Source of the DNA: Amylibacter sp.
GTDB lineage: Bacteria; Pseudomonadota; Alphaproteobacteria; Rhodobacterales; Rhodobacteraceae
Direction of reading: 5' to 3'
Assembly (NCBI GenBank): GCA_021775355.1
Contig: JAJFHZ010000010.1
Coordinates: 62,001 to 126,000 of the forward strand
DNA length: 64,000 bases
Shown one piece after another: positions 30,631 to 50,887 of the stretch; position 1 is the stretch's first letter; every line of letters starts with the position of its first letter. The notes under the pieces were generated by a model that saw nothing but the letters and a program-made list of their open reading frames with translations, did not search any database and was not told the origin of the DNA. The translations under genes and the position numbers were made by a program.

Positions 30631-31332
30631 TCAGTGCCGCTTATATAAGTCCTCGTGTTGAATGGCACTAAGAAGCGCATCCGCCGCAAGATTGATGTCC
30701 ATGTTAAGCGCACTGGCCAACCGCTCACCATCTCTTTTCTGAAGTGCGCGCACGATTTGAAGGTGGTTACTGATGCCGTCGCTTACCTCACCGTATTTCG
30801 GGTAAATGACATTCAGGTAAGAGCCGCTCATCATCCAGCAGCCTTCAATCATGCGGACAAGTTGCTGCATGCCACTGGCCTGATAGATCCCGAAATGGAA
30901 CTGCCAGTTAAGCGAGAACAGCTTGGAATATTCCCCTTTCGCATCCGCCTTGACAATCTCATTATTCAACGCAGCGATACGCGTGATCTCGGCGTCTGAA
31001 ATTTTATCAACCGCCTCTCGTGATGCCAAGCCTTCCAATGCCACGCGGATCTTGGTTAGTTCAATCACACGCTCTTCGGTTACCTCAGGCACATAGACCG
31101 ATCCGTCAGGACGCAGTTCCAATACACGTTCGGAAGCAAGATTGTACAATGCTTCTCTTGTCGGTGTCAGGCTGACATTCAATGCACTGGCAACACCGCG
31201 TATCGTCAGCTTTTCGCCCGGGCTGAACCTTCCGGCCATGACCGCTTCCTTCAATTGGGACCTAACCATTTGGGCCAAGGTTTCACTGCGCCCAATCGGG
31301 GTGAGGCCTTCCAGTGCTGTTGCCATTCTCAT
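30631..31332 (-). CDS. GntR-family regulator, FCD subfamily
   Basis: 233 residues from the ATG at 31332, with AGAAAGG upstream. The N-terminal winged helix is MVRSQLKEAVMAGRFSPGEKLTIRGVASALNVSLTPTREALYNLASERVLEL. The C-terminal all-helical FCD ligand domain includes RVALEGLASREA, FHFGIYQASG and DGISNHLQIVRALQKRD with candidate metal-binding residues. It lies between aapP and the oxidase gene on the same strand. Three related palindromes nearby (30568, 35616, 35801) make it the likely local regulator, with a substrate or breakdown product of the pathway as effector. Confidence 0.87.
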   Translation of the reverse strand: MRMATALEGLTPIGRSETLAQMVRSQLKEAVMAGRFSPGEKLTIRGVASALNVSLTPTREALYNLASERVLELRPDGSVYVPEVTEERVIELTKIRVALEGLASREAVDKISDAEITRIAALNNEIVKADAKGEYSKLFSLNWQFHFGIYQASGMQQLVRMIEGCWMMSGSYLNVIYPKYGEVSDGISNHLQIVRALQKRDGERLASALNMDINLAADALLSAIQHEDLYKRH

Positions 31333-31397
31333 TGCCTTTCTGATGCTCCTTTTCCTAGAATAGATCGGTTTTCCAACAAGCACAAACGCCCTTACGT

Positions 31398-32138
31398 TTA
31401 ATGCGATAAAATCTGGTTCAGGAAATTTTGCGTCCGCTCGTTTTTTGGCGCACCAAAGAATTCTTCAGGTGCTGCCTGTTCAACAATTTCACCTTGATCC
31501 ATGAATATAACACGATCCGCAACCTGTCGGGCGAACCCCATTTCATGGGTCACGCACAACATTGTCATACCATCCTTAGCCAGTGACACCATGACCTCCA
31601 GAACTTCACTGATCATTTCAGGGTCAAGAGCCGAAGTTGGCTCGTCAAACAACAAAACCTCAGGTTTCATACATAATGCACGCGCGATGGCGACCCGCTG
31701 TTGTTGGCCACCTGACAATTCGCCCGGAAATTTTTCGGCCTGCTCCGGTATTCTGACACGCTCAAGGTATGTCATCGCCATATTTTCAGCTTCATCTTGT
31801 GGCATTTTTCGCGCCAACATCGGCGACAAGGTACAGTTCTCCAATACTGTCAGATGCGGGAATAAATTGAAGTGTTGGAAAACCATACCGACCTCACGCC
31901 TGATCTGGTCAATATTCCCGACATTATCGTCAAGTTCGGTTCCAAGCACATTTATTGATCCTTGCTGGTGCTCTTCCAATTTGTTAATGCAGCGGATCAG
32001 CGTTGATTTGCCTGATCCGGAGGGGCCGCAGATAACGATCCGTTCCCCTTTTTGCACTGTCAGGTTGATGTTTTTAAGTGCGTGAAAAGAACCGTAGTAC
32101 TTGTTCATGCCTGAGATGGTAACTGCAGCGTTGCTCAT
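31398..32138 (-). CDS. aapP: General L-amino-acid ABC transporter ATPase AapP
   Basis: 246 residues from the ATG at 32138 with GGAG upstream. Walker A is GPSGSGKST, the signature LSGGQQQR, Walker [15 protein letters not shown], and the switch His is in VTHEMGF, all as in polar amino-acid transporter ATPases (GlnQ/AapP). It follows the two permease genes by 22 bp and energises uptake. The complete order J-Q-M-P matches the Rhizobium aap system. Confidence 0.92.
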
Positions 32139-32160
32139 ATTGGTAACTCCAAAGTTGGGA

Positions 32161-33249
32161 TTAATGTTGCCCAACCCGCAGGTGACGCTCAAGATAAGCA
32201 CCATAACGGGACAGGCTGAATACAAAGACGAAATAAATCATGGCGACGAAGCAGTAGACCTCGACCCAGGCGTGGGACCATTCGCCAGATCCGAAGGCGG
32301 CGTTGCCCGAGGCCAAGACTTCGAAGAAACCAATGATGACGATCAGTGATGTTTCCTTGAAGGTAATGACGAACTGATTGATTGTCGGTGGCAGGGCATT
32401 GCGAAACGCTTGTGGCAGAATAATGCGATTGATCCGCTGCCAATAGGTTAGGCCAAGGGCTTTTGCAGCCTCTTCCTGTCCCGATGGTAGTGCCTGGATG
32501 CCACTGCGGATGATTTCGGCCTGATAGGCTGCGAAAAACAGTGCAAAACCAATAATGACCCGCCAAATTTTATCGCCAACAAGGAAGCCAGGCAACACGA
32601 ATGGCAGTATCAAGGCCGCAGTGAACAGGATCGACACCAGAGGCAACGAACGCACGGCGTCAATAATCGCACCGGTTGTCTTGGCGATGACCGGTAGTTC
32701 TGAGCGGCGCAACAATGCCAATGCGATCGCTGTCGGCATGCCGATCAAGACACCAGCGGCATAGACGAACACGGTTAGCGTCAGGCCACCCCAATCGGCC
32801 GGGCCGACATAAGACAGGCCGAAAACACCACCTGCCATCAGCGTATAGAAGATTGCAAAACCGACAACCCAAAGGGGCCCAAGCCGCATTGGCTTCCAGA
32901 AAAACGGGACACATGACATGATCGCAACCATCACAATGACAATACAGGCAAACGTAGAGCGCCATTGTTCTTCAAAGGGGAACAAGCCGAAAATAATCAA
33001 ACGCCAGCGCACGTCAATCACGGCCCAACAGGCCCCTTCAATGCCGTGGCAGACTTTGGATGTGCCATCTGGTGACGCCCAAACCGCGTTCAGGATCGCC
33101 CAGTTGAAAACGTTCCACACAGCCCAAGCCAAAAACAGGCCAACGATAATTGTGATAACCGAATTCATGGCGGAAGAGAAAAATCGTTTACGCAGCCTTT
33201 GGGCTATATTGCTGTGTGGCGGAATGAATACTGCTATCTGATCGGTCAT
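32161..33249 (-). CDS. aapM: General L-amino-acid ABC permease AapM
   Basis: 362 residues, with a long N-terminal section of membrane segments typical of AapM and the core HisM-type permease domain in the C-terminal 200 residues. The EAA-like loop reads [33 protein letters not shown]. It pairs with AapQ in the inner membrane. It begins 10 bp after aapQ ends. Confidence 0.9.
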
Positions 33250-33259
33250 GGCTTTATCC

Positions 33260-34429
33260 TTACGTGCGTAGCTGCGTGCCCTTCAGAGCGATCGCTTTAT
33301 TCACACGATTGAGCACGAAGGAAATGGTGTTGTTCATAACAAGGAAGCCCAGCATCAGAATGCCGATCAGTTCCAGCGTTTGGCCGGCCTGATTAATCGA
33401 GACCGAAATAACCATAAAGAAGTCAGTGAAGCCCACGACGATACCAAGCGTTGTCGCTTTGAACAGCCATACATACTGGTTGATAAGTGTTGGAAGAACC
33501 GCGCGGAAAGCCAGCGGAAGATGTACGCGCGAAAATACGTACCACGGCGACAAGCCCAGTGAACGGGCCGCCTCGACCTGGCCTTTGCCCACAGACAAAA
33601 AGCCGGCACGCATGATCTCGGCCAGAAAGGCGCCGCCATAAATACCCATGGCGATACCAAGCGCGCCAAGTTCGGGTGAAATGCGGATACCTTCGCGGAT
33701 ATTGAATCCCTTGAGTACAGGCACTGACACAAGTGGGGTTTCAGGAATGCGGCCAATGACCAGCGCTATGCAACCGATAAGAAACGCAATACCGAAGATA
33801 CTCATGCGTATGCGGGATTTTGTGGTTTTTGGAATTTTATTGAAACGGCGCGCAATTGAGAACCAGATCATAATAATCAGCCCAATGGCAAGCGCCAGGA
33901 AGAACAACGATGCAGCACCACCAGTCACGTTGAGACCCGGGAAGTAAAGACCGCGGGCAGAAAAATAGATAGAATCCAAAATGTTGACAGCTTGTTTTGG
34001 ATGCGGCAGGTGGGTCAGTACCGCGTACCAGAAAAACGCCTGCAATATCAGCGGGATGTTGCGGAAAGTTTCGATATATAATGTGCCAATGGCGTTCAGG
34101 ATACCGTTATTCGAGATACGGAACAAAGCTATGATAAGACCAATGATGTTAGCCAGCGCAATTCCCAAAATACCAAGAAACATGGTGTTAAGAAGTCCGA
34201 CTACGATCATCTTGCCAAATGTATCGTAAGGCCCAAATTCGATCAAAGAGAACCCGACATCAAAACCTGTGGCGCGCTCCAGAAAAGCAAAACCCATTGT
34301 GATGCCTTGGCTTTCCAGATTGTGCTTACCGATGACAATTGCCGCAATCAGCAGAAAAAGAAAGAAACCAAGATATCCGGCCTGTAATGCCGTGTTACGG
34401 AATTTCCGGCTCTGTAGAAGGGCTGTCAT
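33260..34429 (-). CDS. aapQ: General L-amino-acid ABC permease AapQ
   Basis: 389 residues with about eight membrane segments. The EAA loop is GKGQVEAARSLGLSPWYVFSRVHLPLAFRAVLPTLINQYVWLFKATTLG. The large insertion between the first membrane helices and the core is characteristic of AapQ compared with shorter HisQ proteins. It lies downstream of aapJ, separated by a stem-loop that should reduce expression of the membrane part relative to the binding protein. Confidence 0.9.
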   Translation of the reverse strand: MTALLQSRKFRNTALQAGYLGFFLFLLIAAIVIGKHNLESQGITMGFAFLERATGFDVGFSLIEFGPYDTFGKMIVVGLLNTMFLGILGIALANIIGLIIALFRISNNGILNAIGTLYIETFRNIPLILQAFFWYAVLTHLPHPKQAVNILDSIYFSARGLYFPGLNVTGGAASLFFLALAIGLIIMIWFSIARRFNKIPKTTKSRIRMSIFGIAFLIGCIALVIGRIPETPLVSVPVLKGFNIREGIRISPELGALGIAMGIYGGAFLAEIMRAGFLSVGKGQVEAARSLGLSPWYVFSRVHLPLAFRAVLPTLINQYVWLFKATTLGIVVGFTDFFMVISVSINQAGQTLELIGILMLGFLVMNNTISFVLNRVNKAIALKGTQLRT

Positions 34430-34452
34430 GGTCTGGCTCCGTATTGATCATT

Positions 34453-34492
34453 TGTAAGAAAAAATCCTGCTGACCGGTCAAACCGGCCAGCA
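34453..34492 (-). terminator. Stem-loop with T tract between aapJ and aapQ
   Basis: On the minus strand TGCTGGCCGGT-TTG-ACCGGTCAGCA forms an 11-pair stem with one wobble, followed by GGATTTTTTC. It is a convincing intrinsic terminator or attenuator directly after aapJ. Such partial terminators commonly let the binding protein be made in excess over permease subunits. Confidence 0.8.
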
Positions 34493-34511
34493 AGAAGTTT
34501 GGGAGGTAAAA

Positions 34512-35549
34512 TCAATCCAAAACCAGCGAGTGAAGAATACCGCCGTCCCGGATCAAACCGTTCACGCCACGTTCAAGCTTGTATGCTGAACCCTGACCCA
34601 TATTGCGTTCCCAGATCTCGTTGTAGTTTCCGAGCTGCTTGATGACATTGTAAGCCCAGTCATCCGATAGCCCGATACGTGTACCAACACCCGGGGTTAC
34701 ACCCAGCATGGTCCCGACAGCAGGGGTTGGTGGATTGGCCTTCATTTCGTCAACATTTTCACTGGTCACACCAGCTTCGTCAGCCAGTAGGAGAATTGAC
34801 ATCAACCAGTTGGAAACATCGACCCATTGATCGTCACCCTGACGCATAACAAAACCAAGTGGTTCAGCCGATAGAACATCGGGCAGGATCTTGATACTTT
34901 CCGGATCATCAACCGCGGTTGCACGCATAACGGCAAGCTGTAGGTCCCAGTCCATATAGGCGTCGCAACGGCCTGACAGGAACGCGGCCTTCGACGCCTC
35001 TGTGGTTTCGAACGGAACCACTTCCATTGTGTAGTCATTGGCCTGCGCATGCTCCACAGCATAACGTTCGTAAGTGGTACCAGCCTGCACGCACATAGTG
35101 CCGCCATCAAGATCGGCAACTTTTACGGAACCGTTATCAGCATGTGTTGCATAGTTGATACCCGCCATCATGTAGGGCCGGGAAAACTGCAATGAAGTGT
35201 CAGTATCGCGAGACATAGTCCAACCCGAGGACTTGATGACAATGTCCAATTCGCCCGATTGCAAACTTGGCCAGCGTTGTGCCCAACTTGTCGGTTGAAT
35301 TGTCAGGTGACCTTCAAAGGCACCGAATATTGCTGTTGCCAGCGCTCTGCACAAATCGATGTCAAATCCTATCCAGCTACCCTTGTCGTCCACTTCGGCC
35401 ATGCCGGGGAATGACCCATTATGGCCAGTACATGACAAAGACCCGCGATCCTGAATTGTCTTCAGTGTAGCACCGAATTCGGCATGTGCGGCCGGCGCCA
35501 GCATAAGTGCAGCAGTAGCCCCGATGGCCAGAGGTTTCATAAATTTCAT
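34512..35549 (-). CDS. aapJ: General L-amino-acid ABC binding protein AapJ
   Basis: 345 residues with a signal peptide (MKFMKPLAIGATAALMLAPAAHA). The mature part follows the family-3 solute-binding pattern: TLKTIQDRGSLSCTGHNGSFPGMAEVDDKGSWIGFDIDLCRALATAIFG, and the C-terminal NEIWERNMG. Periplasmic; it delivers amino acids to AapQM. A palindrome (TGTTATAACA, 35616-35625) lies 67 bp before the start codon. Confidence 0.92.
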   Translation of the reverse strand: MKFMKPLAIGATAALMLAPAAHAEFGATLKTIQDRGSLSCTGHNGSFPGMAEVDDKGSWIGFDIDLCRALATAIFGAFEGHLTIQPTSWAQRWPSLQSGELDIVIKSSGWTMSRDTDTSLQFSRPYMMAGINYATHADNGSVKVADLDGGTMCVQAGTTYERYAVEHAQANDYTMEVVPFETTEASKAAFLSGRCDAYMDWDLQLAVMRATAVDDPESIKILPDVLSAEPLGFVMRQGDDQWVDVSNWLMSILLLADEAGVTSENVDEMKANPPTPAVGTMLGVTPGVGTRIGLSDDWAYNVIKQLGNYNEIWERNMGQGSAYKLERGVNGLIRDGGILHSLVLD

Positions 35550-35833: not shown

Positions 35834-36808
35834 ATGAAAAACGCGCCATCTATCGAAGAACAAAAAGAAATTCACTATAAAATGGTGCTGACTCGTCGGT
35901 TAGAAGAGACGCTTGGTGATCTCGTTAAAGCAGGAAAAACGCGTGGCCCGCTGCACCGTTGTGACGGCCAAGAAGCCGTTGGAGTCGCCGCTTGTGCCGC
36001 CCTAACCATAAAGGATTACGCCTGCACAACCCACCGCGGTCACCATGTTTATATTGGCAAGGGGATGGATCCGCGACGAATCATTGCCGAAATCATGGGG
36101 CGCGAAACCGGCTATTGTAAGGGCCGTGGTGGACACATGCTGCTGGGTGATGTTTCAACCGGCATGCTAGGTGGCAATGCAATAGTTGGTGCTGGTATCC
36201 CTGCCGCAACCGGCATGGCCATGTCAATCCAGCTTTTGAAACAGGATCGTGTAGCAATGGCGGTTTTTGGTGACGGTGCCGCACAAACGGGCATCTGCCA
36301 CGAATCAATGAATATCGCAGGCCTATGGAAATTGCCTGTGATATTTCTTCTGGAAAACAATCAATACGGCCTGACTGTCCGCCAAGAGGTTCAGTCACCG
36401 ATCCCCGATCTTTACACGCGTGCAGCTGGCTACGGTATGCCGGGTGAGGTCGTGGATGGCAATGATGCGGTTGCTGTCTACCGTGTCGTGGCCAAAGCCG
36501 CAGAGCGAGCGCGACGTGGCGAGGGCCCGACACTGATTGAGGCCAAAACCTATCGCATGGCGGGATTCTCAACCTCGGATATGGGTGGGTATCAGACCGA
36601 AGAAGAGATGAAGCCGTGGCTAAAGCGTGATCCGATCAAGCTTTCTGCAGCGGTTCTGGCCAAGCTTATTGGTAAAGATGAGATAACTGAAATAGACAAG
36701 GCCGCCACCGAAGAAATGAAACAGGCATTTGAGGTGGCACTTGCCGATCCACTGCCAAAATTCGAAATCCATGCGCCCAGCAGTGCCTATTCGGAGGCAA
36801 CACAATGA
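35834..36808 (+). CDS. 2-oxoacid dehydrogenase E1 alpha (AcoA/PdhA-like)
   Basis: 324 residues. The thiamine diphosphate/Mg motif is FGDGAAQTGICHESMNIAGLWKLPVIFLLENNQYG. GRETGYCKGRGGHMLLGD and CTTHRGHHVYIGKGMD are typical of acetoin and pyruvate dehydrogenase E1 alpha. It decarboxylates a 2-oxoacid with E1 beta and passes the acyl group to E2. The next gene overlaps by 4 bp. The real substrate may be a branched or amino-acid-derived keto acid, since the operon sits with amino-acid uptake and oxidase genes. Confidence 0.88.
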   Translation: MKNAPSIEEQKEIHYKMVLTRRLEETLGDLVKAGKTRGPLHRCDGQEAVGVAACAALTIKDYACTTHRGHHVYIGKGMDPRRIIAEIMGRETGYCKGRGGHMLLGDVSTGMLGGNAIVGAGIPAATGMAMSIQLLKQDRVAMAVFGDGAAQTGICHESMNIAGLWKLPVIFLLENNQYGLTVRQEVQSPIPDLYTRAAGYGMPGEVVDGNDAVAVYRVVAKAAERARRGEGPTLIEAKTYRMAGFSTSDMGGYQTEEEMKPWLKRDPIKLSAAVLAKLIGKDEITEIDKAATEEMKQAFEVALADPLPKFEIHAPSSAYSEATQ

Positions 36809-37782
36809 CAATGATGCGGTATGCCGAGGCGCTGAACGCAGCACTTCGCGAAGAAATGCAGCGTGATCCTGCGGTTTTCATGTTCGGTGAGGATATCGGT
36901 CGTTACGGTGGTGTGTTCAAAGTCTCGAAGGGTTTGATGGATGAATTCGGCGAAGAACGCATACGCGACACGCCTATTTCCGAACAATCCATGACCGCTA
37001 TGGCCGTGTCGGCGGCAATGACAGGCACTAGGCCGATCCTTGAAATCATGTTCGCTGACTTTATGCCATTGACGCTTGACGCACTGGTTAATCAGGCATC
37101 GGTTTTCAGCTATCTCTGGGAAGATCAGGTGGAAATTCCGTTTGTGTTGCGTACGCAGGGCGGTGGCGGTGCCGGAACCGGTGCCCAGCACGCCAAAACG
37201 CTGGACGCACTTGTTGCCCATGTTCCGGGTATAAAAGTCGTGGCACCTGTAACCCCGGCCGATGCCAAGGGCCTGTTGAAATCCGCGATCCGGGATTCGC
37301 AGCCGGTCGTTATACTAGAACACAAGCTTCTTTATAACATGCGCGGAGAAGTGCCCGATGGCGTCGATGAACTGGTGCCGATCGGCAAAGCGAAAATTGT
37401 GAAACCAGGCAATGACATCACAATACTGGCCACCTCGAAAATGGTACTCGAGGCCGAGGCTGCTGCCAAACAGCTGGAAAAGGACGGGATTGACGCCGAG
37501 GTGATCGACCTGCGCAGCCTTCGCCCACTGGATATTGGTGCAATCAAAACATCAGTAGCCAAAACGAACCACGCCGTCGTTGTGAATGAGGGCTGGACCT
37601 TTGGTGGTTACTCGGCCGAACTGTCGGCGACAATCATGGATCACTGCTTTGATGACCTTGATGCGCCAGTTGAACGTGTCGCTATGCCTGACATGGCGGT
37701 GCCCTATTCGGAACCTCTGGAACTTGCGGTTCTGCCAAACGCCGAAAAAATTGCAGCGGCTGCCCGCAGAGCTTTGGTTTAA
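36805..37782 (+). CDS. 2-oxoacid dehydrogenase E1 beta
   Basis: 325 residues. Landmarks are MFGEDIGRYGGVFKVSKGL, RDTPISEQSMTAMAVSAAMTGTRPILEIMFADF and RTQGGGGAGTGAQHAKTLDALVAHVPGIKVV, the transketolase-type Pyr domain, then the C-terminal transketolase domain (DAEVIDLRSLRPLD). It completes the E1 heterotetramer with the preceding gene. The following E2 starts 8 bp downstream after a GGAGAG site. Confidence 0.9.
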   Translation: MTMMRYAEALNAALREEMQRDPAVFMFGEDIGRYGGVFKVSKGLMDEFGEERIRDTPISEQSMTAMAVSAAMTGTRPILEIMFADFMPLTLDALVNQASVFSYLWEDQVEIPFVLRTQGGGGAGTGAQHAKTLDALVAHVPGIKVVAPVTPADAKGLLKSAIRDSQPVVILEHKLLYNMRGEVPDGVDELVPIGKAKIVKPGNDITILATSKMVLEAEAAAKQLEKDGIDAEVIDLRSLRPLDIGAIKTSVAKTNHAVVVNEGWTFGGYSAELSATIMDHCFDDLDAPVERVAMPDMAVPYSEPLELAVLPNAEKIAAAARRALV

Positions 37783-37790
37783 GGAGAGAC

Positions 37791-39176
37791 ATGATGGCGA
37801 CACAAATAACCATCGGATCCGCCGGCGGCGAATATATGGAAGCTGTGGTAGTCCTTGAATGGGCGGCCAGTATCGGGGATATCGTCAATGAAGGCGACCT
37901 TATAGTCACGGTTGAAACCGCCAAGGCGGCAACAGAGGTTGAGGCCCCATGCGATGGTGTGCTGAGCGCCGTTTTCGCGGAAGTCGGAACGGAAGTGCCG
38001 GTTTCCGAAGTGCTTGGCCTGATCGGCGAGGATGAAAACGATACTGATGGCGCCAATATAGATCAGGGCGAGGATGAAACCAATGCCGCCCCTGCCCCGA
38101 GCACACCAGAGATAGAGGAGCAAATCAACGCCGTCAATTCTGCCCCTGATACACGGGTTATTGCAAGCCCGGCTGCCCGGCTTGCCGCGGCGAAGGCGGG
38201 TATTGATCTTCGCAGTATCGCGATAACCAGCCCCACTGGGCGGATCAAATTGCGTGATCTTGGCGGTGTCACGGGTGACGTTGTTACCCGGTCATCGCCG
38301 CTTGCACGCCGTATTGCCCAAGATGCAGAATTGGATATCGCATCTATCGCCGGAACCGGCACGCGAGGCCGCGTCGTCAAGGCAGACGTTGAACTGGCAC
38401 TCACCAAAGCCGTAATTCCTGCGCCTGCCACAAGCCACGATAGCACATCTATGATGTTCGAAGACGGAAGCTATGAGGTTATTCCGGCGGACGGCATGCG
38501 AAAAACCGTTGCCGCACGGCTGACCGAAGCCAAGCGCGATGTTCCGCATTTCTACCTGACGGCCGATGTCAAGCTTAACGCAATGCTCAAAGCCCGTGCT
38601 GGCATCAATGCCATTGCCCCTATGGATACCGAGGGTAAGCCCACTTACAAAATATCGGTCAACGACTTTATCATCAAGGCCTGGGCACTTGCGCTTCAGC
38701 AGGTGCCACAGGCGAATGCTACTTGGGCGGGGGATGCGATTTTTCTGCACAGGCATTCGGACGTGGCCGTGGCCGTGGCTATCCCCGGCGGATTGTTCAC
38801 ACCGATCGTACGCAAAGCAGAAACCAAAAGCCTGCGGCAAATCTCTGCCGAGGTTAAGGATTTTGCAGCAAGGGCACGCGCACGCAAACTGTCACCGAAT
38901 GAATACATAGGCGGTAGTTCGTCTGTGTCAAATTTGGGCATGTACGGCGTCAAACACTTTACCTCGATTATCAACCCACCACACGGTACGATCATATCAA
39001 TCGGTGCTGGTGAGGAACGGCTTTATCCCGAAAACGGCGAAGTGAAATTCGGCACTTTCATGACGATCTCGGTCAGTTGCGACCACCGTTCCGTCGACGG
39101 TGCACTTGGTGCACAACTGATGGCTGTGTTCAAAATGTTGATTGAACAGCCCTTATTGATGCTGGCCAGAGGTTGA
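37791..39176 (+). CDS. 2-oxoacid dehydrogenase E2 with two subunit-binding domains
   Basis: 461 residues (ATG at 37791 or 37794). The lipoyl domain (1 to about 80) has its Lys45 in VETAKAATEV. After an acidic linker come two separate peripheral subunit-binding domains: ASPAARLAAAKAGIDL... (about 124-157) and SSPLARRIAQDAELDI... (about 168-204). The catalytic acyltransferase domain ends with ISVSCDHRSVDGALGAQL (catalytic His). Two subunit-binding domains are unusual for a Gram-negative E2. No E3 (lipoamide dehydrogenase) gene follows, so E3 must come from elsewhere. Confidence 0.88.
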   Translation: MMATQITIGSAGGEYMEAVVVLEWAASIGDIVNEGDLIVTVETAKAATEVEAPCDGVLSAVFAEVGTEVPVSEVLGLIGEDENDTDGANIDQGEDETNAAPAPSTPEIEEQINAVNSAPDTRVIASPAARLAAAKAGIDLRSIAITSPTGRIKLRDLGGVTGDVVTRSSPLARRIAQDAELDIASIAGTGTRGRVVKADVELALTKAVIPAPATSHDSTSMMFEDGSYEVIPADGMRKTVAARLTEAKRDVPHFYLTADVKLNAMLKARAGINAIAPMDTEGKPTYKISVNDFIIKAWALALQQVPQANATWAGDAIFLHRHSDVAVAVAIPGGLFTPIVRKAETKSLRQISAEVKDFAARARARKLSPNEYIGGSSSVSNLGMYGVKHFTSIINPPHGTIISIGAGEERLYPENGEVKFGTFMTISVSCDHRSVDGALGAQLMAVFKMLIEQPLLMLARG

Positions 39177-39288: not shown

Positions 39289-40104
39289 ATGATGCATTCG
39301 ATCATACTCATTGGTTGCGGGAATATGGGTTACGCTATGCTGGCCGGTTGGCTGAAGCAGGACCCTAGACTGGATGCCCATGTGGTAGAGCCATTCGCGG
39401 ATTTTCGTATACGGGCCGAAGCGGCGGGCGCAACGGCCTATGCAAGCCTTGGCGATCTACCGGCCGATCTGAAACCCGGTCTTGTTATTCTTGCAGTCAA
39501 GCCTGGCATGATTTCATCTGTGCTTGGCGATTGCGGCGCTCTGGCACAAACCGGCGCGACGTTTGTATCGGTTGCTGCCGGAATTACCATTGGCCAGATG
39601 GTAGCTGCACTGCCCGTCGGTACGCCGGTTATCCGCTGTATGCCCAATACACCAGCTGCTATCGGCGAAGGTATGATGGCACTTTGTGCGGGTGATACAG
39701 TATCAGGTGAAGCGCGCACAGTAACCGAAAAACTGCTATCGGCCTCAGGCGCTGTTGCCTGGATCGAAGAGGAAATACTTATGGATGCGGTTACTGCGAT
39801 TTCGGGATCCGGACCGGCCTATGTTTTCCACTTTATCGAAGCATTGACGGCTGCAGGTATCACGCTTGGTTTGCCGGAAAAAACCGCATTGCTGCTGGCC
39901 ACGCAAACTGTTGCTGGCGCGGGCCGGATGGTGCTTAATTCTGACACGGCACCGGCGACACTACGCAAACAGGTGACAAGCCCCGGCGGCACAACCGCAG
40001 CAGCATTGGACGTGTTCATGAACGATGCACACCTTACAGACCTGGTGATCAAGGCGACCACAGCCGCCCGCGACCGAGGTATTGAACTGGGCCAAGGCAA
40101 ATGA
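39289..40104 (+). CDS. proC: Pyrroline-5-carboxylate reductase family protein
   Basis: 271 residues. The NAD(P) motif is IILIGCGNMGYAMLAGWL. The family signature VTAISGSGPAYVFHFIEALTAAGITLGL and the C-terminal LRKQVTSPGGTTAAALDVF are fully present. The family reduces pyrroline-5-carboxylate to proline; given its place in a catabolic operon it may instead act on another cyclic imine, possibly made by the linked oxidase. It has a GAGGAG ribosome site and follows E2 by 112 bp. Confidence 0.85.
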   Translation: MMHSIILIGCGNMGYAMLAGWLKQDPRLDAHVVEPFADFRIRAEAAGATAYASLGDLPADLKPGLVILAVKPGMISSVLGDCGALAQTGATFVSVAAGITIGQMVAALPVGTPVIRCMPNTPAAIGEGMMALCAGDTVSGEARTVTEKLLSASGAVAWIEEEILMDAVTAISGSGPAYVFHFIEALTAAGITLGLPEKTALLLATQTVAGAGRMVLNSDTAPATLRKQVTSPGGTTAAALDVFMNDAHLTDLVIKATTAARDRGIELGQGK

Positions 40105-40129: not shown

Positions 40130-40879
40130 ATGATCACTTTAATCACCGGGGCCGGACAGGGCATCGGATTTGCCATCGCAAAGACATTAAAAGCGCGTGG
40201 CGATAAATTATGCCTGATGGACAGGCACGGGGCCAAAGAGGCGGCAGAAGCACTGGGCGGCGAAGACATCATTGCCGTCGCTGGCGATGTTACCGACGAG
40301 TCGGACGTGGATAGCGCGGTTGCAAAAACCGTCGAGGCTTTCGGCAGTATCGATACGGTTGTAACCGCAGCCGGGATCGTATCAGTTGCACCGGCCGTCG
40401 ACTTTGATGCAGCAGAGTTCAACCGCACGCTTGCCGTCAATGTTACCGGTTCCTTCCTGCCCGCCCGCGCCGCCGCAAAGGTAATGGAAAAGAACGGCGG
40501 TGGCAGTATTGTTTTCATCGGGTCGGTCTATGGGATGGGCGGCGCACCGATGCGGACCGCTTATTGTGCTTCAAAAGGTGCGGTGCACAACATGACCCGT
40601 TCATTGGCCGTGGAATGGGGGCCACTTGGCATCCGCGTGAATGCGGTTGCACCTACTGGAGCCCGCACGCCGATGGTGCAAGATTTGATTGACCGTGGTA
40701 TCTATGACCTTGCCGGCGTCGAGGGCCGAACACCGCTTGGCCGCATTGCCGAACCCGGGGAGGTTGCCACGGCAGCAGAATTTCTAACTTCCCCCAATGC
40801 GACTATGATCAACGGCGTAATCTTACCGGTTGATGGCGGCTGGACCGCAAATGGCTTTGTATTGAAGAGGGCGGAATGA
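40130..40879 (+). CDS. Short-chain dehydrogenase/reductase
   Basis: 249 residues. The cofactor motif is ITGAGQGIGFAIA (about 5-17), the Ser is in VFIGSVYGMGG, the Tyr-Lys pair in AYCASKGAVHNMTRSLAVEWG, and the C-terminus is MINGVILPVDGGW, a classical SDR of the FabG type. It starts 25 bp after proC and overlaps the following gene by 4 bp. Substrate unknown. Confidence 0.88.
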   Translation: MITLITGAGQGIGFAIAKTLKARGDKLCLMDRHGAKEAAEALGGEDIIAVAGDVTDESDVDSAVAKTVEAFGSIDTVVTAAGIVSVAPAVDFDAAEFNRTLAVNVTGSFLPARAAAKVMEKNGGGSIVFIGSVYGMGGAPMRTAYCASKGAVHNMTRSLAVEWGPLGIRVNAVAPTGARTPMVQDLIDRGIYDLAGVEGRTPLGRIAEPGEVATAAEFLTSPNATMINGVILPVDGGWTANGFVLKRAE

Positions 40880-41760
40880 ACGAAACCTTAATCTTTTCCT
40901 GCGAAGGTCAGGACCACGAAATTGACCTGTTAGACGCGCCAGACTCTGAAACACTGCGCCAGTTGAAAGCATGGTTACCCGCCGAGATCACCATTCACTG
41001 CGCCAAGATTGCAGGCTGCCACATCTATTGGCCAAGCCCGATCCTTGCTGCATTGGAGAGTGCTACGGATATTCACAAACTGCCACCTGGTTCATTCCTA
41101 TACTACCCTGACCGGCAATACCTTGAAATCGTCTATGATACGCTGCAGGCCGAAACCGCAGCGGTAACCTATCTGGGTCAGCTTCAGGGCACAGTCGGTT
41201 GGCTTAAAGAATACGCCACACGCCAGCGAAAAGAGGCGGGATCGAAAATGTTCACCGCCACGCTGCGCCTGAAACATGCCGCCCCAACGGAACCCGAACC
41301 GCTTTTGCAAGGCGACAACGCTTGGGTTCGGATCCAGCGTGCGCGGCGCGCGGTGTGGCAGGCTGAACCGGATGAGGTTACCCGCCTACTTGCCAACAAG
41401 GGTCACAACATTCCCTTTGGTCCGATGGCCACGGCAGACGGCTATTACCGCTGTGTTCAGGAAAGCCTCTGGCAGCTTTGGATCAAGCCCGACCGTTTCG
41501 GCGATCAGGCCCGCCGCGCTGCCGCAATCAATGCAATGGAGTTGGGGATTTCACGGATCGGGCATTACTGCCACCTAAATGACAGTGAAAGCTTTTTGCT
41601 CGATGCCATCGCCTGTGTTGAAGCGGGCGAGGTTCCACTACAGGATCTGTTCGCCGAAGTGATTCTCTATTGCAGCCGGATGTCGAATTGGATCGACACC
41701 CACATCCCCTGGTTTCCCGCGAATGAGTTGACCAAGAAGACACTTGGCGTAGAAGACTGA
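40876..41760 (+). CDS. Unrecognised protein; N-terminus perhaps cyclophilin-like
   Basis: 294 residues, soluble, no signal peptide or membrane helix. Residues 1 to about 105 (IHCAKIAGCHIYWPSPILAAL and LPPGSFLYYPDRQYLEIVYD) faintly recall the cyclophilin-like DUF3830 fold, which often accompanies amine catabolic genes; this is pattern memory, not a proven match. The rest is helical, with many Trp and Arg residues (AWVRIQRARRAVWQAEPDEV, YYRCVQESLWQLWIKPDRFGDQARRAAAINAMELGISRIGHYCH). It is translationally coupled to the SDR and followed by a RidA paralogue, so it probably acts in the same pathway. Confidence 0.7.
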   Translation: MNETLIFSCEGQDHEIDLLDAPDSETLRQLKAWLPAEITIHCAKIAGCHIYWPSPILAALESATDIHKLPPGSFLYYPDRQYLEIVYDTLQAETAAVTYLGQLQGTVGWLKEYATRQRKEAGSKMFTATLRLKHAAPTEPEPLLQGDNAWVRIQRARRAVWQAEPDEVTRLLANKGHNIPFGPMATADGYYRCVQESLWQLWIKPDRFGDQARRAAAINAMELGISRIGHYCHLNDSESFLLDAIACVEAGEVPLQDLFAEVILYCSRMSNWIDTHIPWFPANELTKKTLGVED

Positions 41761-41777
41761 TAAAGGACAAATATACC

Positions 41778-42167
41778 ATGACCAAACGCATTAACATATC
41801 CTCTGGGTCAAGCTTTGAAAAAGACTTTGGCTACAGCCGTGCCGTGAAAGTGGGCGGAACTGTCTATATCTCGGGCACTGTTGGCTTTAACTATGAAACC
41901 GGTTCGTGTGACCCTGATCCGATTGTCCAGCTGCACCAGATCATCCACAACATCGAACCCGCTTTGCATGAGGCTGGCGCGACGTTAAAAGACGTGGTGC
42001 AGATCACAACCTACGTCACCTCGGCCGAAGTTTTTGCCACCATCGGCCCGGTTCTGGGCGAGATCTTTGGCGACATCCTTCCGGCCAACGCAGCCATCGT
42101 GGTGCAGTTCCCGGTACCTAACGTGAAAGTAGAAATTTCCGCAACCGCTGTCATTGGGTGTGGCTAG
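41778..42167 (+). CDS. RidA-family protein lacking the catalytic Arg
   Basis: 129 residues, full YjgF/YER057c/UK114 length, with SRAVKVGGTVYISGTVGFN and VVQITTYVTSAEVF. Aligned by eye with E. coli RidA (FPARSCVEV...KIEIEA), this protein reads LPANAAIVVQFPVPNVKVEISA, so Asn104 stands where Arg105 binds the substrate carboxylate. Enamine/imine deaminase activity on amino-acid-derived substrates is therefore doubtful; it may use another substrate. It is in the dehydrogenase operon, 17 bp after the unrecognised gene. Confidence 0.85.
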   Translation: MTKRINISSGSSFEKDFGYSRAVKVGGTVYISGTVGFNYETGSCDPDPIVQLHQIIHNIEPALHEAGATLKDVVQITTYVTSAEVFATIGPVLGEIFGDILPANAAIVVQFPVPNVKVEISATAVIGCG

Positions 42168-42182
42168 TTCAATGGCTTTGGG

Positions 42183-42581
42183 ATGAACCAATCACCCCCC
42201 TGTTTCACGGAAATTGATCGCAACAAGATTGCGCGACTATGCCGAGATCTGGAAAGGCGGAATGCCCAATGGCATATCCACGCGTTACACCCTGGCTGCT
42301 GTTACAATCCAAATCCGGCCGATTACTGCTTTGTCGTCGAAGATACCGACGCGAAAAAGGCGTGGCGTTGTTTTTCGAACAAATTGTTCACGGATGAGTG
42401 CCGGGAACTGGTGCAGTTGCTGCACGGGACCTCTATCCTTGACGACAAAGCTCGCGATCCGGACTTTACACCTCCGAAATTTTTGCAGTCCGTCCGTGAG
42501 TGTGTAAGTAAAGGCGAAAAATGGCATCACCACATCATGAAGCCTGACTGCGTATTTAGGGTGTTGTCAGACGAATTCTAA
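42183..42581 (+). CDS. Cys/His-rich unknown protein truncated by an IS end
   Basis: 132 codons are open, but the last seven (ending VLSDEF) are read from the IS6-type end GGTGTTGTCAGACGAATTCT at 42560. The original C-terminus is therefore missing. The remaining about 125 residues carry several Cys and His (HIHALHPGCCYNP, CRDLERR, KWHHHIMKPDC). I do not recognise the family. It starts 15 bp after the RidA stop and was probably the last gene of the dehydrogenase operon before the insertion. Confidence 0.6.
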   Translation: MNQSPPCFTEIDRNKIARLCRDLERRNAQWHIHALHPGCCYNPNPADYCFVVEDTDAKKAWRCFSNKLFTDECRELVQLLHGTSILDDKARDPDFTPPKFLQSVRECVSKGEKWHHHIMKPDCVFRVLSDEF

Positions 42582-42658: not shown

Positions 42659-42940
42659 TCATCCACTTACATCAGGAAAAACATGGGTGCGTTTGACGAC
42701 GCCGTAAACAAAACTGGTATCAATTGAGCTGATAGCACCGATTGGATGAAGGCGTTTTCGCACAAACCGCTCATAGTCTTCAAGATCGCTGACAACAAAC
42801 CGAAGCAAATAGTCCGACAGGCCGGTCATGACAAAACACTCTAGTATCTCAGGAATTGCCTTCATCTGAGCTTCAAAATGACTGACAGTATCCTCGTTAG
42901 GCTTTGTCACGTTAACCCAGATGAACCAAATAGGCCGCCT
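42659..42940 (-). pseudogene. Lrp/AsnC-family regulator, N-terminus lost
   Basis: About 90 codons of the Lrp/AsnC ligand-binding (RAM) domain remain: IWFIWVNVTKPNEDTVSHFEAQMKAIPEILECFVMTGLSDYLLRFVVSDLEDYERFV. The DNA-binding helix-turn-helix half that should precede it is missing. The open frame continues a few codons into the IS6 element on its upstream side (giving MNGVKLWQPN), which shows the insertion point. Lrp-type regulators often control single amino-acid pathways, so it may once have governed a neighbouring operon. It should no longer bind DNA. Confidence 0.7.
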
Positions 42941-42950
42941 CGATCCGAGA

Positions 42951-43643
42951 TTAGGCTGCCACAATTTCACGCCATTCAACGAATGCTGTGGCGCGGGTTT
43001 GACGAAGAGTTCGGCGAGAGATTAGATGACGTTGCAAATTGAAATGGTTGTAGATGGTGTCGTGGACGGACAGAAACCGTTGCATCGATCCGGGCGACTT
43101 AAACCGACCCATTCGGCGTTCTCGTCGGCGCGTCGGTTGATGTGAAACTTCGGCCCGATTGTTCAATCGACCACCTGTGACATGAAGATGAGCCAAACCA
43201 AGTTCTCGAAGCGCTGCGGAATATGAACCCAGCTTGTCGGTGACAATCTCATCCGGAGTGTATCCCTGTTTTTTCAGGAGTTTTCGCATAAATTTAAGGG
43301 CTGCATGCTTGTTTCGGCGAGATTGGGCCAGGACTTCAAGAACTTCTCCTTCATCGTCTACGGCACGCCACAGATAAGTCCGCTTGCCACCAATGCGGAC
43401 AAAAACTTCATCAAGATGCCAGGTTCCTGAAGGTTGAGCTCTGCGGGATCGGACGTTGGCCGCAATCGCCGGACCGAATTTCAAAATCCATCTGCGGATC
43501 GTTTCATAGCTAACATCTATCCCGCGTTCCGCCAACATTTCCTCGACGTCCCGAAAGCTTAGCGGAAAGCGAAAGTAGAGCCAGACTGCTCGTCGGATTA
43601 TTGACGGTGGAAATCGGTGGCGTGCATAGGACATTTTGCTCAT
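42951..43643 (-). CDS. IS6-family transposase (second type)
   Basis: 230 residues, normal IS6 length, with the DDE catalytic core: WHLDEVFVRIGGKRTYLWRAVDDEGEVL (first Asp), IVTDKLGSYSAALRELG (second Asp) and the late Glu near NNRAEVSHQPTRRRERRM. The N-terminus is FPPSIIRRAVWLYFRFPLSFRDVEEMLAERGIDVSYETI. It is clearly different from the transposase at 45043-45741. The start could be 43643 or 43634. It sits exactly at the break of the second recombinase gene. I could not define its terminal repeats. Confidence 0.88.
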   Translation of the reverse strand: MSKMSYARHRFPPSIIRRAVWLYFRFPLSFRDVEEMLAERGIDVSYETIRRWILKFGPAIAANVRSRRAQPSGTWHLDEVFVRIGGKRTYLWRAVDDEGEVLEVLAQSRRNKHAALKFMRKLLKKQGYTPDEIVTDKLGSYSAALRELGLAHLHVTGGRLNNRAEVSHQPTRRRERRMGRFKSPGSMQRFLSVHDTIYNHFNLQRHLISRRTLRQTRATAFVEWREIVAA

Positions 43644-44839
43644 TCAACAACAATTACCCGTCGTTGGACCGATCGTCGAGTTAATGTGACAATGCCATTT
43701 ATAACTATCACGGCATTACTGATGGTCACGGCATCCGGATCGATGAGCAGTTCCGCCGTCACATTTTCCCTGATATGGTTTATCACCGCATATGATATCT
43801 GGTCCTCGAGAGGCTTGGCCGGCAGGCGCCAGCCAGCAATATCTTTTTCACCGGATTGCTTGGATAATCGATACGAGATGTAATACCGCAGACGCTTGCC
43901 GTTCTTCTTGCTGTGGCTCGGGGTTAAACGGTCCCCTGTTTCGTCAAAGAGCTTACCGATAAGAAGTGAAGACTGGGTGGCCTGTGCTTGCTGGCCCCTG
44001 ATATAAGGCGCTTTTTGCTTCAGTAATGTTTGAACCTTGTCCCACACATCCGGATCAATGATTGCAGCGTGTAGTCCTTCATATATTTCCGCTTTATGCC
44101 GAATGCGCCCGGCATAAAGCGGGTTACTCAGCATATGGTGGATTTGGCCCCGGTCAAAGAGCCTGCCACCACTGGTTATACCTTTTGAACTTGTTCGGCG
44201 CTTTGAACGTAAACCCAGTCTGATTGCTTCCTCTTTCACCAGACGAATAAGCTCATGTTTGAGAAAAAGGTCATAAAGTGTTTTGATCGTCTCAGCTTCG
44301 TCTGTGTTGATCTTCAATGTGCGCCCGTCTGCATCATATCCAAGTGGGACATAGCCGCCCATCCAAAGTCCTTTCTTTTTGGAGGCGGCTATTTTATCGC
44401 GGATACGCTCGGCTGTAACTTCACGTTCAAACTGGGCAAAGGACAAAAGCACATTCAGCGTAAGACGTCCCATGCTTGTCGCTGTGTTAAAGGATTGTGT
44501 GACGGATACGAAGGAGGCTTCTTTTGCATCCAGCCTGTCCACCAGCTTTGCAAAGTCAGGCAGGGATCTGGTCAGGCGGTCTATTTTGTAAACAACAATC
44601 TGGTCTACATCTCCATCGTCGATATGCACCATCAACCTTTGCAAGGCTGGGCGATCCAGCGTGCCACCTGATATACCGCCGTCATCATAGTACGCGGGCA
44701 ACAGCACCCATCCTTCATGCTTCTGACTGGCAATATAGGCTTCGCAGGCTTCCCGTTGTGCATCAAGAGAATTGAACTCTTGTTCCAGACCCTCTTCGGA
44801 AGATTTGCGGGTATAGATGGCACAGCGGATTTTACGCAT
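43640..44839 (-). pseudogene. Large serine recombinase truncated by IS6
   Basis: The open frame gives 399 residues, against 554 in the paralogue at 21477-23141. The resolvase domain (IYTRKSSEEGLEQEFNSLDAQREAC) and the Recombinase domain (LSNPLYAGRIRHK) are intact. The paralogue-like sequence fades near DPDAVTISNAVIVINGIVTL and ends at VVE, where the IS6 transposase begins (4-bp overlap). About 155 C-terminal residues are missing, so it is probably inactive. The two copies are similar but far from identical, so this is not a recent duplication. Confidence 0.8.
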
Positions 44840-44991
44840 GTTTTACACCCCGCTTGCCTGTAAGCCCAAAGAACCGTGGGCCTGACCACTTGGCACCCGT
44901 TATCTTTTTGGCAATCGCTGTGAGGGACGTGTAATCCTTACCATCCATCCGGTAGCCATGTTCCAGCACACTGACCTGATAGGTCCGGCCG
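44832..44991 (-). pseudogene. DUF2924 C-terminal fragment
   Basis: About 53 codons remain on the minus strand: GRTYQVSVLEHGYRMDGKDY, then SLTAIAKKITGAKWSGPRFF, ending in GLTGKRGVKHA. This matches the C-terminus of the DUF2924 protein at 23138-23581. The upstream part, and the expected DUF3489 gene, were replaced by the IS6 element starting at 44992. Its stop overlaps the recombinase start codon, as in the intact module. Confidence 0.75.
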
Positions 44992-45793
44992 GTGCTGTCA
45001 GACTAATTCGAACTCGTCTCAAAATACCATAATTACGAGCATCTAGGAAGCACAGATTTGGAACCACTCGACCAGAGCGGCACTGCGTTTCTGTTTGTAA
45101 GTCTGCCTGGTTTCGAGATGCCTTTCATGATTGAAATGGTTGTAAATTTGGCTGTGATAGCTGACAAATTTTTGGAGAGTTGTGACCGTTTTGAAACGCT
45201 GCATCGCTCGCTCTCGTCGTCGAAATGGCAGGTGTGAATTTTCGCAACGGTTGTTGGATCGGCCACCGCAAAGCTGTCGATCTGCAACGCCAATCTCACG
45301 AAAAGCGGCTCTATATGACGGGAACTTGTCAGTCGTGATAACACTTGGAGAGCCGTGTTTCTTCATTGTTTTTATAAGAAATTTCTTCGCTGCAGCTTTG
45401 TCCCGCCGCTTCGTAACAAAAGATTCAAGCACTTCACCTTCATGATCAACCGCCCGCCACAAATAAAAACGCTCACCATTGATTTTTACGAAAACTTCGT
45501 CCAAATGCCATTGCCAGTTTGAGTGGTACCCCACCCTCTTCTTTCGAATTTCCTTAGCAAATTTCGCCCCAAACCTGTTTCCCCAAAACCGTACTGTTTC
45601 GTGACAGATATCGATTCCACGCTCATGCAGAATGTCCTCTACTTGGCGAAAGCTGAGCGGATAGCGTACGTAATACATCACCGCCAAGCAGATGATTTCC
45701 GGGGAGGTTTTAAAGTATTTGAAGATATTCTGTGCTGTCATTCACCAAAATTAGGGATCAGCCGTGGAACCGTCAAGTTTGTCTGACAACACC
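44992..45793 (-). mobile_element. Complete IS6-family element, about 802 bp
   Basis: The ends are GGTGCTGTCAGACTAATTCG (44992) and, read inward from 45793, GGTGTTGTCAGACAAACTTG; the first 13 bases agree except one. It contains one intact transposase gene. Flanking octamers (GTCCGGCC and CACCCAAC) do not match, so there is no target duplication, as expected after a later deletion or recombination between copies. At least four related fragments lie elsewhere in the window. Confidence 0.8.
45043..45741 (-). CDS. IS6-family transposase (first type)
   Basis: 232 residues, complete. The catalytic core is WHLDEVFVKINGERFYLWRAVDHEGEVLESF, VITTDKFPSYRAAFREIG and NNRCENSHLPFRRRERAMQRFKT (final Glu). 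The N-terminus, MTAQNIFKYFKTSPEIICLAVMYYVRYPLSFRQVEDILHERGIDICHETVRFW, recurs in decayed form at 24150-24315 and 27448-27519. It could still be active. Confidence 0.9.
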   Translation of the reverse strand: MTAQNIFKYFKTSPEIICLAVMYYVRYPLSFRQVEDILHERGIDICHETVRFWGNRFGAKFAKEIRKKRVGYHSNWQWHLDEVFVKINGERFYLWRAVDHEGEVLESFVTKRRDKAAAKKFLIKTMKKHGSPSVITTDKFPSYRAAFREIGVADRQLCGGRSNNRCENSHLPFRRRERAMQRFKTVTTLQKFVSYHSQIYNHFNHERHLETRQTYKQKRSAALVEWFQICAS

Positions 45794-45900: not shown

Positions 45901-46257
45901 TTAGTGATCGCCTACAGCCGCGACGACGATGATTTCAACTTTGTATTCCGGCGTTGCAAGTGCGGCCTCACCACAAGCGCGCGTTGGCGGGTTTGCCGGA
46001 TCTATCCAAGCATCATAAACGGCGTTCATTTCGGCAAAATCCGCCATATCTGCTAGCCAGATTGTTGCTTGTAAAATACATGATTTTGTTGCGCCGTTTT
46101 CTGACAGTAGAGCATCCACACTGGCCAGCATATCATGGGTTTGATCAGCGACAGAGACACCGGGTGTGCCAACTTGCCCCGCCAGCCAGATTATACCGTT
46201 GTGAATAACCGCCTGGCTCATACGCGGGCCAGGGTTAATGCGTTGAATATCACTCAT
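45901..46257 (-). CDS. RidA-family protein
   Basis: 118 residues. GIIWLAGQVG, SCILQATIWLADMADFAEMNAVYDAW and PPTRACGEAAL...YKVEIIVVAAV follow the YjgF/RidA family. Arg93 sits at the catalytic position (PTRACGE), unlike the paralogue at 41778-42167, so imine/enamine deaminase activity is plausible. It would remove reactive imines made by the FAD oxidase encoded immediately upstream, 1 bp away. It is the last gene of the thirteen-gene leftward operon. Confidence 0.85.
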   Translation of the reverse strand: MSDIQRINPGPRMSQAVIHNGIIWLAGQVGTPGVSVADQTHDMLASVDALLSENGATKSCILQATIWLADMADFAEMNAVYDAWIDPANPPTRACGEAALATPEYKVEIIVVAAVGDH

Positions 46258-46258
46258 T

Positions 46259-47368: not shown

Positions 47369-48390
47369 TTCCTCTGTACCCCGCGCAGAAAACTGGTCAA
47401 ATTATCGCCAAGCGCTGGTTGCAGATAACCGCCTTCCTGCACATGCAGTGCTGGCAGCCCAAGGGCTGTAATGGCGGCTCCGATTCTGGCAAAGCCTGGT
47501 GTGGTCACTTTGAAAGCCTCAAACGGGTCGTCTTCATGGGGATCAAGCCCGACTGAGACTACCAGCACATTACTGCCATTGGTTTTGATCCGGTGCAAGG
47601 CTGTTTCAAGCGCAATCAAAAATGCGGCATCATCAGTGCCAAACGGTAGTGGAATATTCAAATTGTAACCCAAACCACGCCCTGTGCCGCGTTCGGCAGC
47701 GTGCCCCCAGAAGAAGGGATAAAAATTCGCCGGATCACCATGAATAGACACGGTCAAAATATCATCACGGTCATAGAAAATACCTTGAGTTCCATTGCCG
47801 TGATGCACGTCGATATCCATAATGGCAGGCCTAAACCCTGCCATTAGAAAATGCTGCGCTGCAATTGCCGCATTGTTCAAATAGCAAAACCCGCCTGCCA
47901 AATCGCCAAAGGCATGGTGTCCGGGCGGGCGGCACAGGGCATAGGCCGCATCAGCACCATCCATCACCAGATCAGCCGCACTTAGCGCAGTTTGCGCAGA
48001 CCAATAGGCCGCATCCCATGTGCCTGCTGCAATCGGGCAGGCGGTGTCTGCTTGGTGGTAGCCAGCTTGACCCACAGGGCCGGTTGGATAGGAACAGCTA
48101 CGATTTGCGGGATGAATATTGGGGATCACTTCGTTCGAAGCATCTTTAAGGCGTGACCATCGTTGGTGGATTGTTTCAAGAAAGGCCAGATATTCAGGGC
48201 TGTGAATGGCGGCAAGTGGTGCGCGGCCATGATCCCTTGGGGGGCTGAATTCACAACCAGCCGCCACGGCAGCTTTGTGTAGCACATCAATACGCTCAGG
48301 TTGCTCACGGCACTGGATCACCTTGCCGCTCAGCAAAGCGTGTTTAGGGTCATGCACAGATTGACGTGCATCCAGCACAGCTTTCATCAT
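47365..48390 (-). CDS. HDAC-like polyamine deacetylase family protein
   Basis: 341 residues from the ATG at 48390, overlapping the thiolase stop as ATGA. The deacetylase signature is [25 protein letters not shown] (catalytic His148-149), with zinc ligands in [13 protein letters not shown] (Asp184, His186) and Asp in [18 protein letters not shown]. The last motif and the length resemble bacterial acetylpolyamine amidohydrolases more than histone-type enzymes. It is expected to release acetate from an N-acetylated amine. The neighbouring polyamine-type transporter supports that. Confidence 0.87.
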
Positions 48391-49571: not shown

Positions 49572-49583
49572 TTTGGTGACCTT

Positions 49584-50876: not shown

Positions 50877-50887
50877 GTGGCAACCTT

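Follow-up and report, generated by a model that had tools for sequence, protein, structure and literature searches.

The locus analysed here raises the question of what a protein of 294 residues does within an operon that looks like a catabolic gene set. The window, i.e. the whole stretch of 64,000 nucleotides from Amylibacter sp. that was analysed, contains the gene in question (the core gene) and the following neighbours:

30634..31383, minus strand: GntR/FCD regulator (PF00392 + PF07729)
31398..35549, minus strand: amino-acid ABC transporter with an ATPase, two permeases and a binding protein (by Pfam; permeases by eye)
35834..36808, plus strand: E1 alpha, TPP-dependent dehydrogenase (PF00676)
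36805..37782, plus strand: E1 beta (PF02779/PF02780)
37791..39176, plus strand: E2 with lipoyl and 2-oxoacid_dh acyltransferase domains (by Pfam; PF00198)
39289..40104, plus strand: pyrroline-5-carboxylate reductase, ProC family (TIGR00112 above cut-off)
40130..40879, plus strand: SDR oxidoreductase (by Pfam)
40876..41760, plus strand: core gene, ATG start, 294 aa; very probably of McbB/cucumopine-synthase-like fold
41152..41154, plus strand: codon of Glu93 in the core gene, aligned with McbB Glu97
41778..42167, plus strand: RidA-family (imine/enamine deaminase) protein (PF01042)
42183..42581, plus strand: uncharacterised conserved protein with WHxH...C motifs (cluster 22; no Pfam match above cut-off)

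The regulator and the transporter, which is presumably AapPMQJ-like, are divergent to the operon. The coordinates confirm what an earlier note on this DNA had read from the sequence, i.e. a reading frame of 294 residues whose start overlaps the stop codon of the SDR gene by 4 bp and which precedes a RidA paralogue; the gap to the latter is 17 bp. The last protein listed has 132 residues and a short C-terminus in comparison to the 175-183 residues of five of the seven cluster members, and the copy at locus L014 is also short (91 aa). Further downstream, a frame on the minus strand (42659-42979) carries an Lrp/AsnC ligand-binding domain in which no DNA-binding part was recognised; it overlaps the end of an IS-type transposase (42951-43643) and may be what an insertion has left of a regulator. 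Beside the operon there are also a second IS240-type transposase and a resolvase/recombinase gene (43640-45741, minus strand), and the same strand holds a second catabolic-looking set (45901-52220) of RidA, DAO, a histone-deacetylase-family protein and thiolase, followed by M20-peptidase- and CoA-transferase-like ORFs seen by eye.

The core gene is a real coding gene under purifying selection. We regard it as coding because the differences to its relative at L014 (88% protein identity) are distributed over the codon positions as 27/17/82, dN is 0.063 and dS 0.61, and relatives are present at 60 loci. The protein had been called rich in tryptophan and arginine. The first part is borne out, as Trp makes up 3.1% of the residues (9/294) compared with 1.3% for the neighbourhood survey's gene clusters 0-30; the second is not, since Arg, at 5.4% vs 7.3%, is below the level of the same clusters.

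The family to which the protein belongs is real, rare and conserved. With the own genome included in both counts, a match was found in 2 out of 198 genomes of the window's taxonomic family and, with a six-row profile, in 7 out of 385 genomes of the class, in one of which (G301) the match covers the C-part only. A scan of one genome per species, which detects only genomes holding one of two short peptide patterns, gave 89 pattern matches, and among these are the 60 relatives, nearly all from Alphaproteobacteria as judged by record title. One record (L020) is titled Oceanobacillus, a Firmicute, and is a mislabelled or contaminated assembly. Among 41 relatives, most of them from the same genus, nothing beyond the window was matched except for short stretches with E-values of 0.017 or worse, and a profile of the C-terminal domain detected the window and one other only in 398 genomes of the phylum (E<=0.001). 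The alignment used below (A2) has 51 rows, i.e. the core protein (P0001) and the proteins of 50 of the 60 loci. It omits L018 and L071, whose copies carry internal stops, as well as L039, L040, L044, L050, L055, L057, L058 and L067, which looked close to other rows. Of its columns 38 are invariant; 26 lie within residues 1-130 and the other 12 at residue 161 or beyond.

The view that the protein contains no known motif holds at the curated cut-offs of Pfam and NCBIfam: PF18050 (Cyclophil_like2, residues 23-109) scores 19.6 bits, below the cut-off of 22.7, PF12903 (DUF3830) does not reach its cut-off either, and NCBIfam gave 0 families at E<=1. The faint cyclophilin-like or DUF3830 impression mentioned in the earlier note is nevertheless genuine. 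PF18050 is matched by 26 and DUF3830 by 10 of the 51 family members (E<=0.1), the G277 relative exceeds the DUF3830 cut-off, and residues 1-133 of the predicted structure resemble cyclophilin-like barrels.

In the AlphaFold2 model of the core protein (mean pLDDT 93.2, pTM 0.92) a cyclophilin-like barrel, approximately residues 1-135, is joined to a helical bundle, approximately residues 147-294. For the whole model Foldseek places McbB at the top (E 2e-12, TM 0.76/0.72), followed by AF2241, TM1367 and then KslB. VIA-align aligns 278 residues with McbB (residues 1-288, Z 25.7, rmsd 3.1, 18% identity), with KslB at Z 17.7 (residues 1-133) and cyclophilins at about 11. McbB (PDB 3x27), the Pictet-Spengler cyclase of marinacarboline biosynthesis, has the same two domains in the same order as the core protein, although it is a biosynthetic enzyme. 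KslB (PDB 9ns6 and others), a bacterial Pictet-Spenglerase of L-Trp and 2-oxoglutarate, contains both types of domain in the reverse order, the helical part (1-151) first and the barrel (178-317) second. The stand-alone cyclophilin-like proteins TM1367, AF2241 and 3kop, on the other hand, share the fold of the N-terminal domain but have no fused helical domain.

Separate structure prediction of the two parts had been proposed as a check. The C-terminal part folded alone reaches a pLDDT of 95.6, and VIA-align ranks McbB first (Z 14.4, 139 aligned) and KslB second (up to Z 13.0, 137 aligned), these matches spanning 132-139 of its 148 residues, and the next unrelated row is at 10.9 over 97. Foldseek gave no match at E<=0.001 for this domain; its top 16 rows, starting at E 0.08, are all KslB chains, and McbB does not appear in the best 50, so that the check points to McbB and KslB by VIA-align and, weakly, to KslB only by Foldseek. 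Since helical bundles can reach Z 13 by their common arrangement, as the warning of VIA-align says, we give weight to how much of the domain is covered and to the full-length match. McbB was not found when solved structures were searched with the core protein's sequence or with profiles: the single sequence gave 0 matches at E<=10, and the 51-row profile gave AF2241 (E 0.011) and 3kop (E 0.38). The only matches of the six-row profile were esterases at E 0.46 and above, which we take as chance, and viral structures gave no match at E<=0.001. The label "unrecognised" is therefore apt for the sequence families tried and not for the fold. The McbB match comes near to the clear full-length hit to a characterised enzyme that the earlier note had named as speaking against its reading, but it stands at 18% identity and is made with a predicted model.

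The other check proposed, a profile-profile search, links the core protein to the mikimopine-synthase and McbB proteins. The A2 profile matches a set of five fused proteins (the product of a 308-aa gene of pRi1724, two Agrobacterium plasmid proteins, McbB and a Nonomuraea McbB-like protein) over 270 columns with a probability of 95.4 and an E-value of 1.8e-8, and the maxima for 18 control families are 1.94 with the A2 query and 3.94 with half-length queries. N-terminal domains compared with each other give 92.8 (95.9 with G301), and C-terminal domains 54.6 without the bridging G301 sequence and 94.9 with it; by these profiles the whole protein is well linked, its C-terminal domain alone less so. 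In the PDB, McbB carries the molecule name "Cucumopine synthase", and "Cucumopine synthase C-terminal helical bundle domain-containing protein" is used for one KslB entry set. The 308-aa gene is the mikimopine synthase (mis) candidate of pRi1724, and both its product and the two-gene relatives (a DUF3830-like and a Cucumopine_C protein) have the architecture of the core protein. The model PF18631 (Cucumopine_C) matches the C-terminal domain of the mis candidate above cut-off (32.4 bits) and the separate helical genes (84.5 and 89.4 bits), whereas G301, with 24.8 bits, stays under the cut-off of 27 and the core protein has no match at E<=10. Because its C-terminal domain misses this model we do not file the core protein as a member of PF18631; it appears to be a distant sister family outside it. 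Taken together, the core protein very probably has the McbB/cucumopine-synthase fold and is distantly homologous to these enzymes.

How much of the active site is shared can be seen from the alignment. We take the active-site residues of McbB to be Arg72, His87 and Glu97, with Glu97 at chain position 118; the offset of 21 was inferred, because all three residues then fit. Glu97 aligns with Glu93 of the core protein in three MAFFT modes, with a one-residue insertion nearby. Glu93 is glutamate in 51 out of 51 aligned family members, and the column holds Glu in 8 out of 9 other relatives: the mis candidate, McbB, the protein from Nonomuraea and all but one of six further proteins, the exception being the DUF3830 protein of G301, which has Pro. 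His87 corresponds to Tyr82 and Arg72 to Ile66, i.e. only the glutamate of the three is shared, and in the same alignment Arg72 and His87 are not kept in the mikimopine synthase candidate either. Glu97 is given as the catalytic glutamate of McbB in the available excerpt of PMC9366743, and an excerpt of PMC11015028 places the active site of this fold between the two subunits of a homodimer.

The genomic neighbourhood of the family was surveyed at the 60 loci by tblastn, each gene having its own E-value threshold. As many of the loci belong to closely related genomes (Mesorhizobium, Rhizobium), the counts cannot be treated as independent; contig ends cut the upstream flank in L014, L022, L030, L049 and L059. 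Near the family gene we found SDR (56/60), GntR (55/60), E2 (51/60), E1 alpha, E1 beta and a P5CR-like reductase (49/60 each), a 3-hydroxyacyl-CoA/carnitine-dehydrogenase-like protein (40/60), NIPSNAP (39/60), a B12-binding protein, a pipecolate-oxidase-like DAO and an alpha/beta-hydrolase (36/60 each), LivK and FAD_binding_2 (33/60 each), cupin (30/60) and an AspDH-like protein (28/60). RidA (11/60), the cluster 22 protein (8/60), AapJ and AapQ (4/60 each) are less frequent. As a base rate, the window's genome has 3 E1 alpha-like genes in 3.49 Mb, or about 2% per random 20 kb; this figure covers E1 alpha only, and SDR and GntR genes are common. The uptake systems vary by group and are of the Aap-type ABC, Liv-type ABC or TRAP kind, the last represented in seven loci by clusters 23, 25 and 24, which are DctP, DctQ and DctM by Pfam (one member each). 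Six loci with long flanks (L018, L019, L035, L045, L051 and L052) have no E1 genes. The lone family copy of L019 (L019:9998-10870, 60% identical) has no operon genes around it that pass the thresholds; about 6 kb off there is an SDR-like frame, and a polyketide-synthase-like frame (by eye) is on the same contig. The B12-binding protein of the rhizobial operon (e.g. L012:3774-5510, 579 aa) is recognised in its C-terminal B12-binding domain only, and its useful matches among solved structures cover the same part.

The E2 protein shows one difference between the window and its relatives. In 50 out of 60 loci E2 is of the AcoC type known from acetoin dehydrogenase operons (AcoABC), with lipoyl and alpha/beta-hydrolase parts in one stretch (at L022 and L051 the hydrolase is matched but no lipoyl part), and the Neorhizobium E2, the one that was scanned, scores above the cut-off of PRK14875, a model for the E2 of acetoin dehydrogenase. 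The E2 of the window lacks this arrangement and has an acyltransferase domain (PF00198) that is matched in none of the 60 loci; it therefore looks like a replacement. No acetoin operon with the core protein is known to us. Overall, the survey supports the earlier claim of a catabolic operon, and a catabolic role of the core protein is probable. The suggestion that it is made together with SDR and RidA in a fixed ratio may be right for this genome but is no general rule, given that SDR is nearby in 56/60 loci and RidA in 11/60.

Computation thus supports the fold of both domains, a distant homology, an invariant Glu93 and a conserved, catabolic-looking neighbourhood. Our preferred but tentative reading, which we would put somewhat short of an even chance, is that the core protein is an enzyme of McbB/cucumopine-synthase fold working in a catabolic pathway, where it cleaves its substrate by a retro-Pictet-Spengler or retro-Mannich lyase step. 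That it carries out this chemistry is, taken by itself, possible though uncertain. We speculate that an imported, amino-acid-derived ring compound would be cleaved by a reverse Pictet-Spengler (retro-Mannich) step in which Glu93 might shift the proton at the ring carbon. Opening of the C-C bond would leave an iminium, whose hydrolysis would yield an amine and a carbonyl compound. Imine, enamine and ketone products could then be processed by SDR, the P5CR-like reductase and RidA, and conversion of the carbonyl half to acyl-CoA could fall to the E1/E2 complex of acetoin-dehydrogenase type. Whether the family as a whole consists of catabolic retro-Pictet-Spengler lyases that open amino acid-carbonyl adducts and give an alpha-dicarbonyl or acyloin compound to an acetoin-dehydrogenase-type complex is rather doubtful. 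It speaks against the preferred reading that no gene for the breakdown of an aromatic amine half was recognised, that PF18631 is missed, that the C-terminal domain alone is linked less firmly, that Arg72 and His87 of McbB are replaced, and that six loci have no E1 genes. Acetoin or pyruvate as plain substrates were set aside, since neither should need P5CR-like, DAO or RidA genes. To our knowledge no activity has been described for any of the 60 relatives.

The strongest competitor is that the same fold performs another chemistry, as an imine/enamine or beta-keto-acid lyase, an isomerase or a cyclic-imine hydrolase, whose substrate would be an intermediate from the P5CR-like enzyme, SDR or DAO and not a Pictet-Spengler adduct. 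There is a considerable chance of this, even if it falls below one half. It fits the sharing of the glutamate alone among the three active-site residues of McbB, and the P5CR-like (49/60), DAO (36/60) and RidA (11/60) genes point to imine chemistry; moreover, the library describes the DUF3830 model as of unknown function. What speaks for the Pictet-Spengler type instead is that McbB is at the top for the whole model, and that McbB and KslB are at the top for the C-terminal domain alone (VIA-align).

The direction of the reaction is best discussed with the plasmid-borne relatives. In mikimopine and cucumopine, histidine is joined to 2-oxoglutarate in an adduct. On pRi1724 the 308-aa mis candidate lies near the T-DNA end, and a two-gene DUF3830/Cucumopine_C pair, taken as being outside the T-DNA, is found about 1 kb apart from it (L104:9665-12549). 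The two genes of the pair are 54% and 40% identical to the halves of the mis candidate, and an amino-acid transporter and hydantoinase A/B genes are nearby. The position of the 308-aa gene agrees with the location of mis close to the right border of the T-DNA that is described in the retrieved part of PMC5606197. The same pair is followed by hutH, a transporter and hydantoinases on Sodalis pHS1, and in Sinorhizobium medicae there are hydantoinase genes about 8 kb away. On the Agrobacterium plasmids pAvCG412 and pTiLBA1190 a fused, 320-aa relative directly precedes hutH (L107:7935-8897 and L110:7935-8897), with hutC, hutI, formimidoylglutamate deiminase and hydantoinases in the vicinity. Other two-gene relatives are followed by a glutamine-amidotransferase-domain gene (L080, whose helical protein found nothing in the plasmid collection), lie between hydantoinase A and urocanase genes (L101), or occur with an amino-acid transporter on a Paraburkholderia symbiotic plasmid (L108, pair detected by tblastn of the helical gene). 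In Nonomuraea gerenzanensis the McbB-like gene (L109:9509-10450) is followed by a DAO-like oxidoreductase frame, seen by eye.

Because fused relatives directly precede hutH on the Agrobacterium plasmids, the context fits the release of histidine from a histidine-derived opine through its synthesis run backwards, and suggests that the fold can also work in the cleaving direction. This argument concerns distant relatives, and the histidine genes could serve an opine that is cleaved otherwise. For succinamopine, the accessible part of PMC6733357 presents hydantoinases as lactam openers, with amino-acid genes beside the opine-splitting genes. In passages of open-licence PMC texts on mikimopine, cucumopine and catabolism, nothing was found that ties this fold to opine cleavage.

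The forward direction, in which a reactive aldehyde or 2-oxo acid is condensed with an amine in order to trap a toxic carbonyl or to make a product, is unlikely for the core protein. It would agree with the synthetic role of McbB and KslB, as given in the available portions of PMC7024544 and PMC12513458, and with the lone copy of L019 on a contig with a polyketide-synthase-like frame (by eye), but uptake-system and dehydrogenase genes are near the family gene in most loci. Finally, a prolyl isomerase, a chaperone or a non-catalytic subunit that aids assembly of the E1/E2 complex, to which the cyclophilin-like N-terminal domain (cyclophilins at Z of about 11) and the nearby E1 (49/60) and E2 (51/60) genes might point, is very improbable, and the isomerase role was set aside. 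The scores of cyclophilins are far lower than that of McbB and concern a single domain, a ligand site is suggested by the 38 invariant columns, which are spread over the N-part (26) and the C-part (12), and the Shinella loci L035 and L045 have the family gene without E1/E2 in their 10-kb flanks.

For an enzymatic retro-Pictet-Spengler reaction the search of open-licence PMC found only the review PMC7024544, the retrieved part of which mentions a proposed, putative step of this kind by fungi on manzamine alkaloids and names no enzyme; the idea of such a reaction in metabolism is thus not new. Open-licence PMC gave no paper for DUF3830, and nothing for cyclophilin-like with PF18050 or for the gene combination.

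The bacterial enzymes of McbB fold that we found described build alkaloids or opines. If the cleaving reading is true, the family would show, along with the fused and two-gene relatives near opine and histidine genes, that one and the same fold both makes amino acid-carbonyl adducts, as in the opine and alkaloid synthases, and eats them. A catabolic branch would give a protein candidate for ring opening by reversal of synthesis, it could explain the use of histidine opines, and it would give a function to a DUF3830-type domain. The family also points to a catabolic-looking operon whose enzyme set is conserved and which is genetically testable in rhizobia.
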